Origin: a virus
DNA: 20,456 nt
Direction: 5' to 3' (one strand)
Virus record (IMG/VR): IMGVR_UViG_3300022750_000035
Coordinates: 1 to 20,456 of that record
Below are positions 95-18,256 of this stretch, in pieces; positions within the stretch are counted from its first letter, which is position 1, and each line of letters opens with the position of its first letter. The translations under genes and the position numbers were made by a program. The notes beneath the pieces were generated by a model, which worked only from the letters and a program-made list of their open reading frames with translations, was not told the DNA's origin and made no database searches.

Positions 95-1732
95 ATGAAA
101 ATACTAGGATATGAAATTGGATTTAAGAAAACTGAAAGTTTAGCTACTCCTTCGCAGCCAAAAAGCACAGTTTATTTGGAAAATGATTTTGCTATGGGGC
201 ATAATTATCCGGTGGTAAATGTTAAGTGGGATGGGGAGAAAAATCTTGGAGAGCTTGGCGTTGTAACCAGAACCATTCCGGATTATGCCAAGTTGAGGTT
301 GAGAATGTATAGTGCTTATGCTACTATTGACACGATTAAAATAATTGCTTCAAAGTTCTTTTATTGGACCATTGGATCAGGACTTAAACTGCAGGCAGAA
401 CCTAATAGAACTGTTTTAGAAACAGAGGGAATTGTAAACGACGAGAAAGTTTATACTAAATTTCAGAAATCAGTAGAGGCCAGATTTCAGCTTTACGCTA
501 ATTCAAAACAAGCTGATTATAAAAAGCAAAATAGCCTTCATGATTTAGCACTTGAGGCTTATCAGGGTGAATTTTTGGGAGGTGATATGTTATGCATCGT
601 TAGGTTTGATGAAACCGGTCCAACCATGCAGGTAGTTTCCGGAGAGCACGTTTGCGATCCAGATTTGGAATACATTGAAACTGCAAAAAAGAAAAACAAT
701 CGAGTTGAACACGGAATTGAGATTGATTTAAAAGGTGCTCATGTTGCTTTTTATGTACGAACAATTAAAGAGGATCTGACTTATAGTTTTGAAAGGATTC
801 CGGCCATTGGAGAAAAATCAAAGAAAAGATTGGCGTGGATGGTTTCCGGAAAGAAAATTAGTCCTGATCATATTCGTGCTGTTCCTCAAATGTCTCAGTC
901 TCTTGAAAAAGTAAATAAATTGGATAGATATTCTGAGGCTGTAGTGACTAAGGCAGAACAGGGTGCAAAAATTGTATATACTGTAGAGCATCAAGAATTT
1001 TCTACGGGAGAAGATCCATTGAAAGGCATTGTTGCTAAGAAGAGGGGAGATGTTATCACGGGTTCAGCCGATGTGGAAAGCAACAGAGCTTTGGCTGATG
1101 GACTTGTAAACAAACTTAATCAGACTGCCGGAGGAATGGCTTATAACCTTCCAAATGGTGCTTCATTAGAATCATTTCAATCGGAAGCAGAAGGAGATTA
1201 TCCTGCTTTTAAAAAGGCTGTTTTTGAAGAAATTAGTGCAGGTTCAGATGTTCCACCAGAAGTTGCAATGCAACAATACAACTCAAATTATTCTGCATCG
1301 AGAGCTGCCATTAATAGTTTTGGTTATATCATTGTGATCAACAGAACAAAATTCTCAAATGATTTCTATGCTCCATTTTATGAACTTTGGTTGTATTGGG
1401 AGATTTTGATGAAAAAAATTAGTGCTCCTGGATATTTAGAAAACATCAACAATTTCATGGTGACTGAAAGTTATTCTCAATGTAGATTTACAGGTAAAAA
1501 CATGCCTCATATCGATCCATTAAAAGAAATAAAAGCAGTTCGTGAGATGTTAGGATTATCTGATACCACACCATTAATTTCAAGAGAACAGGCTGCTGAG
1601 ATGTTGGGTACAGGACAATGGGATGAGAATTTCTTAAAGAACTTAGAAGAGGCAAAATTGATTCCAAAAGAAATGTTGGAGCCAGAAAAAACCGGAACAG
1701 AAATTAAAAACAAAAACGATGGCAAAAAGTAA
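95..1732 (+). CDS. Phage portal protein, lambda family
   Basis: Portal proteins form the dodecameric ring at the capsid vertex through which DNA is packaged and ejected. The 545 aa length fits the lambda gpB/PF05136 family. Features seen: an N-terminal stretch with the RLRMYSAYATIDTIK segment; the GEFLGGDMLCIVRF strand; HIRAVPQMSQSLEKVNKLDRY, matching the family's RGvP region; and PPEVAMQQYNSNYSASRAAI, matching the family's characteristic NYSSaRA motif (about residues 387-406). The C-terminus is polar and Lys-rich. The start at 95 follows the previous stop by nine bases. The next gene starts inside this one with a 14-base overlap. The head protease and major capsid genes that usually follow a portal are absent here. 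Confidence 0.9.
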   Translation: MKILGYEIGFKKTESLATPSQPKSTVYLENDFAMGHNYPVVNVKWDGEKNLGELGVVTRTIPDYAKLRLRMYSAYATIDTIKIIASKFFYWTIGSGLKLQAEPNRTVLETEGIVNDEKVYTKFQKSVEARFQLYANSKQADYKKQNSLHDLALEAYQGEFLGGDMLCIVRFDETGPTMQVVSGEHVCDPDLEYIETAKKKNNRVEHGIEIDLKGAHVAFYVRTIKEDLTYSFERIPAIGEKSKKRLAWMVSGKKISPDHIRAVPQMSQSLEKVNKLDRYSEAVVTKAEQGAKIVYTVEHQEFSTGEDPLKGIVAKKRGDVITGSADVESNRALADGLVNKLNQTAGGMAYNLPNGASLESFQSEAEGDYPAFKKAVFEEISAGSDVPPEVAMQQYNSNYSASRAAINSFGYIIVINRTKFSNDFYAPFYELWLYWEILMKKISAPGYLENINNFMVTESYSQCRFTGKNMPHIDPLKEIKAVREMLGLSDTTPLISREQAAEMLGTGQWDENFLKNLEEAKLIPKEMLEPEKTGTEIKNKNDGKK

Positions 1733-4406
1733 ATTAATACTTGAAAATTCTTCCTTAAATTGGGATGCTAGACGAAGATACAAAGTGAATTCTGTTGTGT
1801 CTCATTTAGGGCAGAATTGGCAAAATTTGACAGGTGAAAATTCGGAGCCTGGCGTTGGACCTGATTGGTTTAATAGTTCATCAAAGTCTAATTTTAATTT
1901 AGCAGGAACATCTACTGATGCAGGAGGAAATAAAACTGATGCTATTGAAAGAACTGGAACTGTTGGGGGAGCACCTGCAACAGCTCCAAATCATTTTGTT
2001 ACTAAATCTCAAGTAGATGTAGAAGAAGATACAGGAACAGTTATTGAATTAAATAGAAATATAGGCACATATTATAATATGTATTCTGCAAATTCAGCAA
2101 CGGTATATACATTTGATAATGAAATATTAGGAGGAAAAGCAATTGTTTTGATAAATTCATCCTCAAAGCCAACGGTTACAGGTGCAACAAATATACACGG
2201 AGATACATTTGAGCCAAACGTAAATATGTATATGACGGTTTGGAACAATGGAAACAGAGTTGAGTATTATTTTACTAAAATATCATCTACATCAACCGCA
2301 CCACCTACGTTTTTAAACTATACCGATTTAATGATTAATGGAGCTGTATTGACATGGCAAAACAATTCTGTTGAGATTGATTTTTCAATAGAAAGATCAT
2401 TGGACGGTATTGCCTATTCAGAAATTGGAACTTCTACAGTTACAACCTACACAGATACAACAGCGATTGCAAATACACATTATTATTATAAAGTAAAAAT
2501 AAAAAATGAAGAATTTGAATCTAGTTATTCAAATATCATTTACTTAAAAACAACTAACACGAAATCAGAGGTATTATTTTCAAAAATGTTAGCTGCCGGA
2601 AATGCCGCGCCTGCATTTAATAAATCGGTTTATGATAGTGGATTGCAAAAAATGGATACTGCAGGAATTATTTCTGTTGCTGACTTTTTTAATTTATTCG
2701 CTTCTCATGGCGAAGTATCTGCATTATTAAACTGGATTTCGACAAGTTTTAATTCTACAAAAGGAGGTACGCCGGCGTTTACAGCAAATAGAGGGTATAA
2801 AGGAAACGGAACTAATGGATATATTGTAACTGCTTATAATCCTTTAGTAGATCATGTAAACTTACTTGAAAACAATGGTATGGTTTCTGTATTTACATTA
2901 GATCACACCACAGAAAACCCTGCGTTGTTTGAGGCTAATTCTGATGCTTATGCAAAGAGGATTTTAGTAAATCCTAAAAATGCCTCAAATTTATATTCTG
3001 TAAAGTTTAATACTACTTCGGCAAATACGGGAACGCCTCCGGTAAATACAATAGGTTTGCATACATTGATTAGAACATCTAGTACAGCATTTTCATATTA
3101 TTTTAACGGTGTTTTAGTTCAAACATTTACCAATACATCTGCAGGATTGCCAAATGGTCAATTTTATTCATTAGCTAGTGAGTTGGCTGGATCAATTAGT
3201 ACATTTTCAACAAGACAGGTGTCTATGGTTTTTGCAGGAAGTGGATCAATTACACCACCAACATTATACAACGCAATTAAAGAAATGATGATGGTAGGAT
3301 CTGGGTTTAGCCCTATAGTATGGAGTGGATCTACATCTGGAAATTATACAGCGTTAAGTGGTGTTAGCCAAACGTTTGTTACAACATTTGCACCTACAGC
3401 CGTAAATGATAAAGCTTATAACCACCATCCTTTTATTATAGAACATGGTGGAGCAATTCATTTAATGTATTCAACAGGTAACACAAACGAAGAAGAAAGC
3501 GGTCAATATGTTCGCTATCAAAAATCAATAGATGGCGGTGCCACTTTTAGCACACCTGTAACACTTGTTGTACCACAAGATATTACAGGCGGTTATTTAG
3601 TTAGGAGAGTTTGTTTACCGTCATTCTTTATAGTTGTTGAAGGCAGTTTATACGCTATCGTAGATGTAAATACAAGAGCATCAGGTTCTGCAGGAACTAG
3701 AACAGGGGTAGGAACATTGGCGGTAAAAGTAAATTCCAATGCAACTTTTGAAACTCCTTTTTGGATAATAAATCCGGCAGGAAACACAACGGCTCCAACT
3801 CCTATACTGGGATTTCCTGCATATCAGTTTAATACATTTTTAGGAAGTAAAATTTTAAACGCTATACTTGATTCAGAAAGAAGACCTTCTTTCTTTTACT
3901 CATGCCCTGTAAGTAATCCTTTATATACGGTTTCTGCTTTTAAAACCGTTAGAATGGAAGAGCCGACAGTTACAAAGCTATCCAATGGGTTATGGATTAG
4001 ATTATGGAGAATATTAGATACTACTTATAAAAAAATAGCTCAGTACTCTTTTGATGGGTCAAACTGGGGAGGATTAAATACTACTGAAATTCCAGATTGG
4101 GCCTCTAGAAGTGAGTTTTTAAAATGCTCCGATGGTAGAATTATTTTAGTTGGAAACAACAATACACCTACAAATAGAACGCCTTTGTTTTATGCTCAAT
4201 CAGCAGATGGATTAGAGTATAAATCAGGTAATATTTTTAATATAGATACCGAAACAACTGGACCTGTCTATCCTGGAACCTACAAAGAAACAGGAGTACA
4301 ATACCCACACCTTACAGAATTATCTAACGGTAAAATAGCTGTTGCATACTCTGTGAATAAAGAACAAATAAGAGTATCAATATTTAACAAGCCTACTTTA
4401 GTATAA
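1719..4406 (+). CDS. Multidomain tail fibre / receptor-binding protein
   Basis: This 895 aa protein has no signal peptide and is built from modules expected on a virion surface. Residues about 15-52 resemble a chitin/carbohydrate-binding module (RRRYKVNSVVSHLGQNW, then a GPDW Trp). Residues about 192-277 form a fibronectin type III domain (VLTWQNNS, then ERSLDGIAYSEIG, ending YYYKVKI). Residues about 337-520 look like a concanavalin/LamG-type sandwich (GLHTLIRTSS, YYFNGVLVQTF). Residues about 566-895 resemble a sialidase-type beta-propeller with Asp-box-like turns (SIDGGATFS, SFDGSNWG). These folds suggest binding of host surface glycans. Its ATG lies in the last codons of the portal gene, so the two are probably translationally coupled. 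It is followed by a strong terminator. Domain order is inferred by eye; the exact receptor is unknown. Confidence 0.7.
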   Translation: MAKSKLILENSSLNWDARRRYKVNSVVSHLGQNWQNLTGENSEPGVGPDWFNSSSKSNFNLAGTSTDAGGNKTDAIERTGTVGGAPATAPNHFVTKSQVDVEEDTGTVIELNRNIGTYYNMYSANSATVYTFDNEILGGKAIVLINSSSKPTVTGATNIHGDTFEPNVNMYMTVWNNGNRVEYYFTKISSTSTAPPTFLNYTDLMINGAVLTWQNNSVEIDFSIERSLDGIAYSEIGTSTVTTYTDTTAIANTHYYYKVKIKNEEFESSYSNIIYLKTTNTKSEVLFSKMLAAGNAAPAFNKSVYDSGLQKMDTAGIISVADFFNLFASHGEVSALLNWISTSFNSTKGGTPAFTANRGYKGNGTNGYIVTAYNPLVDHVNLLENNGMVSVFTLDHTTENPALFEANSDAYAKRILVNPKNASNLYSVKFNTTSANTGTPPVNTIGLHTLIRTSSTAFSYYFNGVLVQTFTNTSAGLPNGQFYSLASELAGSISTFSTRQVSMVFAGSGSITPPTLYNAIKEMMMVGSGFSPIVWSGSTSGNYTALSGVSQTFVTTFAPTAVNDKAYNHHPFIIEHGGAIHLMYSTGNTNEEESGQYVRYQKSIDGGATFSTPVTLVVPQDITGGYLVRRVCLPSFFIVVEGSLYAIVDVNTRASGSAGTRTGVGTLAVKVNSNATFETPFWIINPAGNTTAPTPILGFPAYQFNTFLGSKILNAILDSERRPSFFYSCPVSNPLYTVSAFKTVRMEEPTVTKLSNGLWIRLWRILDTTYKKIAQYSFDGSNWGGLNTTEIPDWASRSEFLKCSDGRIILVGNNNTPTNRTPLFYAQSADGLEYKSGNIFNIDTETTGPVYPGTYKETGVQYPHLTELSNGKIAVAYSVNKEQIRVSIFNKPTLV

Positions 4407-8709: not shown

Positions 8710-8721
8710 AAAAATAATAAG

Positions 8722-8750
8722 ACTTTTGTTTTGTTATTAAAAACTTTTGT
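8722..8750. promoter_or_regulatory. Tandem operator-like boxes, 21 bp apart (AC-TTTT-GT)
   Basis: ACTTTTGT occurs at 8722-8729 and 8743-8750, starting exactly 21 bp apart. The second box ends one base before the -7 element at 8752. The same AC-N4-GT boxes at the same 21-bp step occur at the 17953 promoter. The AC/GT ends are palindromic, as expected for a dimeric regulator. Confidence 0.55.
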
Positions 8751-8759
8751 CTATATTTG
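8730..8759 (+). promoter_or_regulatory. Strong Bacteroidetes-type promoter of the early operon
   Basis: TTTG at 8730-8733 and TATATTTG at 8752-8759 are separated by 18 bases, a good match to the -33 / -7 (TAnnTTTG) arrangement. Transcription should start near 8765-8767, giving a leader of about 120 bases before the ATG at 8890. Confidence 0.75.
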
Positions 8760-8765
8760 CCCTAT

Positions 8766-8889
8766 AAGTTTGAAAGCTCTAACCGATCAAACTCTCCATA
8801 AGAAACTAGCAAAATGCTATTAGGGGATATCGAGGTTAGAGCCGATGGAACCTTTTAGCATTTTCTCATTTTAATCAAAAACTATAATT
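8766..8889 (+). ncRNA. Structured leader RNA with interlocking pseudoknot pairings
   Basis: Three exact long-range pairings are visible. S1: AGTTTGA 8767-8773 with TCAAACT 8787-8793 (7 bp). S2: GCTCTAACC 8776-8784, lying in the S1 loop, with GGTTAGAGC 8834-8842 (9 bp), making an H-type pseudoknot. S3: AAAATGCTA 8811-8819 with TAGCATTTT 8856-8864 (9 bp), which interlocks with S2. S3 competes with a local hairpin TAGC/GCTA (8807-8810 with 8816-8819). S1 begins at about the expected transcription start. The last pairing ends 25 bases before the ATG of the next gene. The layout suggests a cis-regulatory RNA or riboswitch-like element. It does not match any riboswitch or ribozyme class I recognise, and no ligand can be inferred. 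Confidence 0.55.
8814..8858 (+). CDS. Possible 14-residue leader peptide
   Basis: ATG 8814 opens a short frame ending at TAG 8856-8858, encoding MLLGDIEVRADGTF. The start codon lies in the 5' strand of pairing S3 and the stop codon in its 3' strand, so translation would disturb the fold. An A-rich stretch precedes the ATG. It may be chance; short frames of this size are common. Confidence 0.2.
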   Translation: MLLGDIEVRADGTF

Positions 8890-9096
8890 ATGAAATCAAA
8901 ACTTAAATTACCCGTTGTTGAGACCAATAGGCTAAACGAAGCTTTTAAAGAAGCAAATGTTCAATGTAAATCTTTGTCTAAAGCTTTGCGAAAAAATGAT
9001 CCGAGATCATGGTTCGAAAAATTCTATGATTCAGTAACCAACTTTCTGAGCGGAGGAAAGTCTTTTGCTCCTAATGAATTAAAACCTCTTAGATAA
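8890..9096 (+). CDS. Small basic protein, first gene of the early operon, unknown function
   Basis: A 68 aa basic protein (KSKLKLPVVETN at the start, helical middle NRLNEAFKEANVQ, WFEKFYDSVTNFLSGG near the end). No recognised domain, signal peptide or membrane helix. It follows the structured leader and is the first gene under the strong promoter at 8730-8759, so it is probably made early and abundantly. Its stop overlaps the next ATG by one base (TAATG). Confidence 0.65.
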   Translation: MKSKLKLPVVETNRLNEAFKEANVQCKSLSKALRKNDPRSWFEKFYDSVTNFLSGGKSFAPNELKPLR

Positions 9097-10418: not shown

Positions 10419-11405
10419 ATGATTGATAAAAGGTTTGAAATTGCTACGTATGATAATACTCGTGATTTAATGTATAAATACAGAGAGCAGGGAGCCTTAA
10501 GAGGTGTTTATTTAGGGTTTCCTGAACTTCATGAAATTTATACAATGTCATTGCCAGGTTGTACCGAGTGGACAGGAACGCCTCAGTCAGGTAAAAGTGA
10601 AGTTCTTTTGGAAAAGCTTTTAAATACTTCATTGTTTTATGGGTGGAAACACTTACTATATGTACCTGATATTGGTAGAAAAGAAGTAGTTATTGCAAAA
10701 TTGATTCATAAAATATCTGGTAAAACTTTTGACAAAAGATATATAAATTCAAACTACATATCAGAAGCCGAAATAGAAAGGCATCTACAGTGGATTTTAG
10801 AGCACTTTTTTATATTAACTAGAAAAGATACTAAAAAGAAAATAACGCCTTATGAGTTTTGGGATTTGGCGGTTCAGATGAAGTACGACATGGGGCTGCA
10901 TACTGCTACAATTGATAGTTGGAAAGATATGAAGCGTTATGTTGGAAGAGACGGAGAACCAATTCATAGAGATGATTTGTATTTAGAAGATGTTTTAGAG
11001 TATAGAAATACACTTTCAGAGGAACACAATTTACATTTTCACATTATCATACATCCTCTTAAAACAGAGTTTGATTCTACAGGAAAGAGGAAGCCTCCTC
11101 ATCCTTATGATCTAAAAGGCGGTACTACTTGGTTTGATTCTGGAAAATGCCAAGTGACAATTCACAGAATTGATGGAAGTCCAAATGGCTTTAGATTTAT
11201 AGTCTATAAAGGAAAACCAGAAACAGTAGCTAAAATAGGTGAATGTATAATGTATTATGATGCTACAAAATCTAGGATTTATACAGATGGACCAGAAGGC
11301 AAGAAGTATGCTAATGCAAAATACATTGCTCCTAAAGCTAGTTTACTTGAAAAACAATCGTTACACGAGGATGATGATGAAGAAGATCCTGAATTACCAT
11401 TTTAA
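10419..11405 (+). CDS. SF4 (Twinkle/DnaB-like) replicative helicase ATPase domain
   Basis: A 328 aa RecA-fold ATPase expected to unwind the phage replication fork. Visible: GVYLGFPELHEIYTMSLPGC (29-48), the usual lead-in to the fold; Walker A GTPQSGKS (53-60); Walker B-like TATID (162-166); HIIIHPLK (208-215), matching the sensor/His motif; and DLKGGTTWFDSGKCQVTIHR (231-250), matching the Twinkle motif ending in the arginine finger. In the H1a position, where these helicases usually have Glu, the sequence is YVPD (Asp84). There is no primase domain, so it equals only the helicase half of T7 gp4 or Twinkle. The tail ends in an acidic stretch and PELPF, like an SSB C-terminal tip. An alternative is a RecA/RepA-type ATPase. 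Confidence 0.8.
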   Translation: MIDKRFEIATYDNTRDLMYKYREQGALRGVYLGFPELHEIYTMSLPGCTEWTGTPQSGKSEVLLEKLLNTSLFYGWKHLLYVPDIGRKEVVIAKLIHKISGKTFDKRYINSNYISEAEIERHLQWILEHFFILTRKDTKKKITPYEFWDLAVQMKYDMGLHTATIDSWKDMKRYVGRDGEPIHRDDLYLEDVLEYRNTLSEEHNLHFHIIIHPLKTEFDSTGKRKPPHPYDLKGGTTWFDSGKCQVTIHRIDGSPNGFRFIVYKGKPETVAKIGECIMYYDATKSRIYTDGPEGKKYANAKYIAPKASLLEKQSLHEDDDEEDPELPF

Positions 11406-13871: not shown

Positions 13872-14120
13872 ATGGGTAAATTAAGCGAAAGCCAAAGAGT
13901 AGAGATTAAGGAAATGATTGCAGACAAATTGTGTGTTGATCTGGAAGAAGTAAATGATGATTCAATTTTTGTAAAAGATCTGGGAGCAGACAGTTTGGAT
14001 GAGGTAGAGTTGATCATGGAAGTTGAGAAAATGTTTGACATTTCTATTCCGGATGAGGTTGCAGAAGAAGTCAAAAATGTGACTCAATTGTTTGAAGTTG
14101 TTGAACGTTATATCCAATAG
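13872..14120 (+). CDS. acpP: Acyl carrier protein
   Basis: An 82 aa acidic protein with the full ACP fold. The phosphopantetheine attachment site is Ser41 in LGADSLDEVELIMEVEKMF (the DSL motif). The loop and helix III region reads DISIPDEVAEEVKNVTQLFE, close to bacterial fatty-acid ACP. After modification by a host phosphopantetheinyl transferase it would carry acyl chains. It lies in the middle of the phage early operon, three bases before the exonuclease gene. No fatty-acid synthesis enzyme is visible here, so its partner must be a host or phage protein elsewhere. The symbol reflects similarity to fatty-acid ACP, not proven orthology. Confidence 0.9.
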   Translation: MGKLSESQRVEIKEMIADKLCVDLEEVNDDSIFVKDLGADSLDEVELIMEVEKMFDISIPDEVAEEVKNVTQLFEVVERYIQ

Positions 14121-17901: not shown

Positions 17902-17972
17902 ACAAAAGTCAAAAATAAATTGACAAAAGTTTTTATATTCAAAACATTTGTCTATATTTGTCATGTAAAAGT
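17902..17972. promoter_or_regulatory. Four phased operator-like boxes at 21-bp steps
   Basis: ACAAAAGT at 17902-17909 and 17923-17930, ACATTTGT at 17944-17951, and a weaker GTAAAAGT at 17965-17972 start exactly 21 bp apart. The first three share AC-N4-GT. They overlap the promoter, with the third box ending one base before the -7 element. The same boxes occur at 8722 and 8743. Confidence 0.55.
17953..17960 (+). promoter_or_regulatory. Promoter of the second early operon (-7 element TATATTTG)
   Basis: TATATTTG is an exact TAnnTTTG match, 36 bases before the ATG at 17996. TTTGTCTATATTTG (17947-17960) is identical to 8746-8759. There is no TTTG at the usual -33 distance, so the promoter may depend on bound regulators. 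Confidence 0.65.
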
Positions 17973-17995: not shown

Positions 17996-18256
17996 ATGGC
18001 ACAAAAAAAAGAGGCTACAGAAAAATTAGAGATCAAAGATGTTTTCTTTGATTTTGACAACGTTATGGCTATCGCTCTTAAGCGAGGAGTTTTAAAAACT
18101 GAGAAGTCCATTGCTCAGGAGATTGGTTATAGTAATGATGGGTATAAGAAGTTGAACCGTAAAGCACCACAAGCTGTTGCCACGTTGGTTGCTTTTTTAA
18201 AGGCCAACGATTTAAAGTTGGAGGATGTTATTAAGGAGTGTGAATCAAAAAAGTAA
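17996..18256 (+). CDS. Small HTH (Cro-like) DNA-binding protein
   Basis: An 86 aa protein with a helix-turn-helix-like block at about residues 38-81: KSIAQEIGYSNDGYKKLNRK, then LVAFLKANDLKLEDVIKEC. This matches a short XRE-type domain, where ..A.e.G.s...y..l.. is followed by the l..fl...dl.ledli end. Residues 1-20 are polar. It is the first gene after the promoter with four phased boxes, so it may regulate its own transcription; this is inference. It could also act as an antirepressor-like partner. Confidence 0.7.
   Translation: MAQKKEATEKLEIKDVFFDFDNVMAIALKRGVLKTEKSIAQEIGYSNDGYKKLNRKAPQAVATLVAFLKANDLKLEDVIKECESKK

Follow-up and report, generated by a model that had tools for sequence, protein, structure and literature searches.

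What is the role of a short non-coding leader in which several complementary segments interlock just ahead of a phage operon? The question arises from a viral DNA of 20,456 nt (IMG/VR record IMGVR_UViG_3300022750_000035, positions 1 to 20,456; this whole stretch is referred to as the window), in which an earlier note, made from the letters alone, had picked out three exact pairings between 8766 and 8889 and had suggested a phage-encoded cis-regulator, a ligand sensor or a stable small RNA. To our knowledge, little is known about gene timing in phages of Bacteroidota. Several questions have to be answered. Could the pairings have arisen by chance? In what topology would they fold? Is the fold kept in relatives, and is it kept as RNA? 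Which step of gene expression would it influence? The answer reached here is that the leader is, as far as sequence comparison can tell, a real control RNA that is apparently undescribed and whose exact job is unproven. No published description of it was found in the open-access literature, supplement-only candidate lists lying outside the search.

Architecture of the leader

All elements of the leader lie on the + strand. The promoter, read from the sequence, consists of TTTG at -33 (8730-8733) and TATATTTG at -7 (8752-8759) with 18 nt between them; we take 8730-8759 to be of the Bacteroidota type from its established consensus, and its position predicts a transcription start at about 8765. 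Homologous leaders likewise lie directly 3′ of similar promoter elements. At the predicted start of the transcript, AGUUUGA (8767-8773) forms an exact run with UCAAACU (8787-8793) to give the hairpin P1, all six modelled pairs of which covary, and its loop L1 (8774-8786) contains GCUCUAACC (8776-8784), one half of a loop-loop pairing, or kiss. A 17-nt linker (8794-8810) leads to P2, an exact run of AAAAUGCUA (8811-8819) with UAGCAUUUU (8856-8864) that is present in both the MFE and the centroid folds, is supported by covariation in subtype A and, judging from its hairpin energy, closes a terminator-like hairpin. P2 encloses a further hairpin, P3, composed of UAUCG (8828-8832), the outermost pair being U-G, and CGAUG (8843-8847), which was found in the centroid fold and by a descriptor and shows covariation. 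The 10-nt loop of P3, L3 (8833-8842), holds the other half of the kiss, GGUUAGAGC (8834-8842); exact complementarity, covariation and permutations support both halves. A 25-nt spacer with no SD and a weak U-tract (8865-8889; T-score 4.22) then separates P2 from the first gene of the operon (8890-9096), which encodes a 68-aa protein of unknown function without a Pfam or PHROG match.

The three pairings of the earlier note, P1, the kiss and P2, are the only Watson-Crick runs of at least 7 bp in 8766-8889 (7, 9 and 9 bp), and its judgment that chance is an unlikely origin was borne out: among 5000 dinucleotide-preserving shuffles, one 9-bp run occurred in 4.6% and two in 0.06%, and two such runs with a further run of at least 7 bp in none. 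It had also correctly placed the 5′ strand of the second pairing in the loop of the first, and the whole between the neighborhood of the predicted transcription start and a point 25 nt before the gene. The interlocking that it had described as crossing pairings is real, but the topology is one of kissing hairpins, the middle 9-mer linking L1 and L3; P3 (TATCG/CGATG in the DNA) had been overlooked, leaving its list incomplete. A nested-only fold of the leader contains P1, P2 and P3 and beats shuffles (z -2.1). Read from the sequence in this way, the predicted fold is two hairpins, P1 and P3, joined by a loop-loop kiss, with P3 inside P2.

One alternative pairing exists, between UAGC (8807-8810) and GCUA (8816-8819), and is kept in subtype A7, the nearest to the window. 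This hairpin overlaps the P2 5′ strand and is thus mutually exclusive with part of P2. Spanning 8807-8819, and GAAA-looped in locus L132, it is a possible switch in the subgroup of the window only.

A family of leaders

Direct BLAST of the leader matched only the promoter in other phages, and a scan for the pattern TCGAGG...CCGATGGA gave chance matches apart from L001 and L002, the loci of the two near relatives of the 68-aa protein. Relatives of the second gene led to one distant locus only, and genome contigs yielded one relative of a helicase-like protein encoded in the operon at 10419-11402 (phrog_5482). Through phage relatives of this protein, about 120 loci, some of them overlapping, were collected and searched with a descriptor comprising promoter, P1, kiss, P2 and P3. 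At a cut-off score of at least 38, it gave 64 matches, of which 63 lie on the strand of the operon and a single one on the opposite strand, versus 3 in Markov shuffles, these counts including duplicates of one leader; other viral contigs (2.05 Mb, both strands) gave 3. By the strict descriptor rule, the leader is present in 31 of the 52 loci whose sequence extends 3 kb or more upstream of the helicase. This is a lower bound, as at least L187 and L237 were scored negative yet have a leader by covariance model, and L179 also has one, at 2106.

In total, one architecture is shared by 49 non-redundant leaders, drawn from cultured phages and from phage contigs of the Flavobacterium type: a promoter and P1 come first, then a linker, P2 with P3 inside it and, in many cases, a U-tract, and a start codon lies about 20 nt further on. 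Cultured phages with the leader include FCL-2 (37487-37582), FCV-1, which has two (35875-35971 and 40365-40450), and Tenacibaculum phage Gundel_1; Mumin- and Lillamy-type LMO phages have two leaders each. The weaker entries L150, L174, L181, L222 and L228 parse imperfectly and were excluded from the linker, rod and terminator-score statistics. A perfect 8-bp kiss is present in L246 (GCUUCCAC/GUGGAAGC), which the descriptor had missed, and also in the Gundel_1 leader, located by DNA search. L260 was rejected as a member, being an ordinary hairpin with a U-tract, and an R2 scan of 396 genomes from one order gave no convincing match.

Covariation and the private kiss

Because MAFFT misplaced P1 when divergent leaders were aligned, an in-register seed served as the starting point for covariance models, which were built up in two rounds on P1, P2 and P3 only. 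The kiss was left unscored, although the seeds had been chosen by the kiss-based descriptor. In 19 of the 21 first-round matches, L1 and L3 of the same leader are complementary over 7-10 contiguous bp; mismatched loops average 4.3 bp, and the observed total was reached in 0 of 20000 permutations. When an alignment of subtype A and its near relatives also included the kiss, both partners changed in 28 of 29 pairs (249 cells, which count sequences rather than independent events; 0 of 500 shuffles), among them 7 of the 8 kiss pairs, one kiss pair, A-U, being invariant. Paired cells amount to 95.9%, versus 60.4% when shuffled and 37-45% when slid, and all slid versions collapse.

The earlier note had proposed a structured leader RNA before an early operon and had named the absence of compensatory changes in relatives as its refutation. 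Such changes are present: the leaders of L001 and L002 retain P1, P2, P3 and the kiss, the last with two double changes (C-G to A-U and A-U to G-C), and many more occur in more distant leaders, across dozens of them. For the structure, covariation is decisive. It establishes that 8766-8864 encodes a conserved structured RNA, in which the P1 loop is predicted to kiss, over 8-9 bp, the P3 loop atop P2.

What is conserved is the match and not the letters. There are 36 different kisses among 44 leaders, and related LMO phages differ by matched kisses, GUGGAACG/CGUUCCAC and GUGAGACG/CGUCUCAC. In six two-leader phages, the self-pairing energy of the kiss is -10 to -14 kcal/mol, and that of cross-pairing between leaders 0 to -6 kcal/mol.

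The leaders fall into groups. In subtype A, the kiss in L1 directly adjoins the 5′ strand of P1 and is followed by 5-6 nt (often ANUAA), that in L3 is preceded by 2 nt, and UGAA/GGAU forms the internal loop. Subtype B mirrors this arrangement, with 2 nt 5′ of the kiss in L1, 4-5 nt 3′ of it in L3 and the internal loop GGA/AAA, and a third group has AGUA/GAA. The group of the window is closely related to subtype A and has, in addition, the UAGC/GCUA hairpin as a competitor of part of P2. The total stacked length varies little (31-38 bp), and linkers range from 9 to 23 nt; linker length and rod length showed no correlation, although one would be expected if the linker spanned the full rod. By rough geometry, linkers of 9-11 nt, as found in some members, are too short to bridge a P1-kiss-P3-P2 rod that is straight and about 34 bp long, so the kiss and the full P2 may compete, with an effect of unknown sign.

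Genes behind the leader

Each of the 48 leaders with an identified ORF has a co-directional start codon 3′ of P2, usually within 34 nt (median about 21 nt). The first genes are diverse, encoding NUMOD4-HNH and HNH-AP2 endonucleases, KilA-N, HTH/DnaD-like and DUF6291 proteins and small unknowns, and the leader-bearing Mumin-type LMO phages are described as virulent (PMC7077304). An element that is gene-agnostic, co-directional and TSS-proximal and that occurs in virulent phages is best read as a cis-acting early-operon leader, which favors the cis-regulator among the options of the earlier note. That it acts in cis on early (replication/recombination) operons, whatever the first gene, is an inference with good support.

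Some further observations concern the genes themselves. Homing-type endonuclease genes, NUMOD4-HNH or HNH-AP2, directly follow many leaders (L140, L137, L158, L164, L185, L243 and L252). The first gene of the window carries, within 9030-9096, a C-terminal motif, GKSFAPNE(L/T)K, common to otherwise different small phage proteins, found in L003-L008, that appear to have an N-terminal membrane segment. A second promoter block of the early type lies at 17911-17968, with 76% identity to 8710-8767, before a gene at 17996 and has no kissing leader. Elsewhere in the window, an acyl carrier protein (13872-14120; PF00550, E 4e-12) is encoded in the early/replication cluster directly before a DnaQ-like exonuclease, and an 895-aa protein with BNR-repeat and CBM5/12-like matches (1719-4406) is likely a tail or carbohydrate-binding protein.

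How might the leader act?

The role that we judge most likely, while stopping a little short of even confidence, is control of transcription through the terminator-like P2 hairpin; it is inferred without transcript data. The leader would then be a built-in transcription attenuator with the kiss as a structural lock. In the nascent RNA, P1 would fold first, P3 and the kiss next, and P2 as the polymerase arrives at the U-tract, and the way in which the kiss and P2 form would decide how many polymerases stop and how many read through, with a phage or host protein, polymerase speed or ribosomes as conceivable modulators. The letters of the kiss would be free as long as they are matched, and would differ between the leaders of one phage so that cross-pairing does not occur. 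The transcription start, the termination, the direction of the effect and the modulator are all inferred.

The P2-P3 hairpins of the leaders have a mean ΔG of -18.7 kcal/mol, and the tail behind them has a mean T-score of 5.24, versus 3.30 at the equivalent place before other FCV-1 genes (p = 5e-16). A terminator score of the classic type is positive (d > 0) in 33 of 39 leaders; the window and the related L001 and L205, all with a weak U-tract, score below zero, and L143, one L190 leader and L255 also fail. No TANNTTTG element separates P2 from any of the start codons inspected, so read-through seems to be needed. No mutually exclusive antiterminator was found to be kept in every subtype, and searches for infection RNA-seq or other transcript data for leader-bearing phages found none. 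Like known attenuators and intrinsic terminators, the leader has a stable stem, with a U-tract in most members, before the first gene of an operon; unlike them, it has a hairpin whose cap loop kisses a hairpin at the 5′ end. No peptide, tRNA or ligand signature was seen in it.

Since the U-tract of the window is weak, two other explanations remain alive. It is possible, if unlikely, that the leader stabilizes the mRNA or insulates its translation, the 5′-terminal fold blocking 5′-dependent decay and keeping an SD-less start region open. P1 at the extreme 5′ end, the near-constant distance of about 20 nt from P2 to the AUG and the weak U-tract in the group of the window would all fit, as would initiation in Flavobacterium without SD and tuned by mRNA structure, as has been reported (PMC6847099). 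The U-tract of most members and the retention of a covarying, private kiss would be left unexplained.

Rather doubtful is a processive antiterminator like put of phage HK022, for which antitermination via the zinc-binding domain of the RNA polymerase beta′ subunit is characteristic; in this reading, the folded leader would bind the elongating RNA polymerase so that later terminators of the early operon are ignored. The leader resembles putL and putR as a cis-acting RNA element on early operons, one or two per phage directly after early promoters (predicted and not mapped in the case of the leader); putRNA has two stem-loops in about 70 nt (PMC9378689), and the leaders have the recurring purine-rich internal loops UGAA/GGAU, GGA/AAA and AGUA/GAA. 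However, put requires specific bases (PMC9378689), which contact RNA polymerase, whereas the leader keeps its shape and not its letters, with a single invariant kiss pair, freely varying stems and three interchangeable types of internal loop, and membership of put by conserved sequence was rejected for this reason. The loop-loop kiss and terminator-like stem also set it apart, and an antiterminator would not need the usual U-tract after the stem.

A small RNA freed by termination at P2 and acting in trans, as an sRNA, a decoy or a packaging-type RNA, with the operon placement secondary, would account for a compact RNA of about 100 nt delimited by a promoter and, at its far end, by a terminator-like stem. 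We consider it improbable in view of the start codon directly behind each of the 48 leaders, the near-exclusive location of high-scoring matches on the operon strand and the lack of conservation of the exposed loop letters. The packaging case has a precedent in phi29 pRNA, also a phage RNA of about 100 nt or more with two complementary loops that differ between phages. Those loops kiss between molecules in the packaging motor, whereas the leader is the 5′ UTR of an early operon; the portal of the window is lambda-type (PF05136) and FCV-1 has terminase and portal, and pRNA was rejected on these grounds, intermolecular pairing being untested.

Still less credible is an antisense immunity RNA by which loops would pair between leaders and early genes would be shut off. 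P4 CI and P1/P7 C4 are structured RNAs of early-operon leaders with complementary segments, and the hypervariable complementary segments of the leader also lie upstream of early genes. These RNAs act in trans, whereas the leader holds both partners of a private pairing in one molecule, the Rfam C4 family is unmatched, and the phages that carry it include ones reported to be virulent (PMC7077304), in which lysogenic immunity is not its role. Inverted repeats acting as DNA operators, which would also keep complementarity, can hardly be entertained, since all three stems contain G-U pairs (21/276, 60/509 and 8/189) and the + strand folds better in 37 of 44 leaders, which favors RNA, and fixed loop registers and nested stems with a kiss also speak against them.

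Relation to known RNAs

The earlier note recognized no known RNA class, and an Rfam 15 search agrees: there was no gathering match in the window and nothing relevant at relaxed E in 13 leader and analogue loci. Its ligand-sensor option is unlikely to hold, with almost no invariant nucleotide across three internal-loop subtypes. A riboswitch was rejected in the absence of a conserved ligand-binding core, the internal loops being interchangeable and the loop roles swapped. We have filed the leader as a structured phage leader of a new kind, distinct from put, C4/CI, pRNA and riboswitches.

Of the three control matches, one was informative, revealing a leader of analogous design in unrelated phages whose promoters are TATAAT-like (L261, L263, L264 and L265). 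There, 10-12 bp form between a 5′ segment and the inner part of a stem of 13-15 bp that ends about 20 nt before the gene, the matched letters differing per lineage. L263 and L264 have no clear U-tract, which cautions against assuming termination. The gene behind the analogue encodes a 270-aa protein without a Pfam match; in L263, the analogue is at about 1360-1500. We propose, only tentatively, that these RNAs belong to a new and widespread class of RNA-only switch, in which a hairpin at the 5′ end is joined by a private kiss to the loop that caps a terminator-like stem, the two loops can swap roles (subtypes A and B) and a comparable design recurs in unrelated phages with sigma-70-type promoters (L261, L263-L265).

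Implications

The leader is a conserved RNA element on early promoters of cultured virulent phages of flavobacteria and is therefore directly testable. It offers a natural collection of matched loop pairs, about 36 of them different, that should be useful for studies of RNA structure and for the design of insulated regulators. If termination is controlled, the leader would provide a protein-free design alongside put; if it is not, the leader would represent another way in which a leader shapes early expression.
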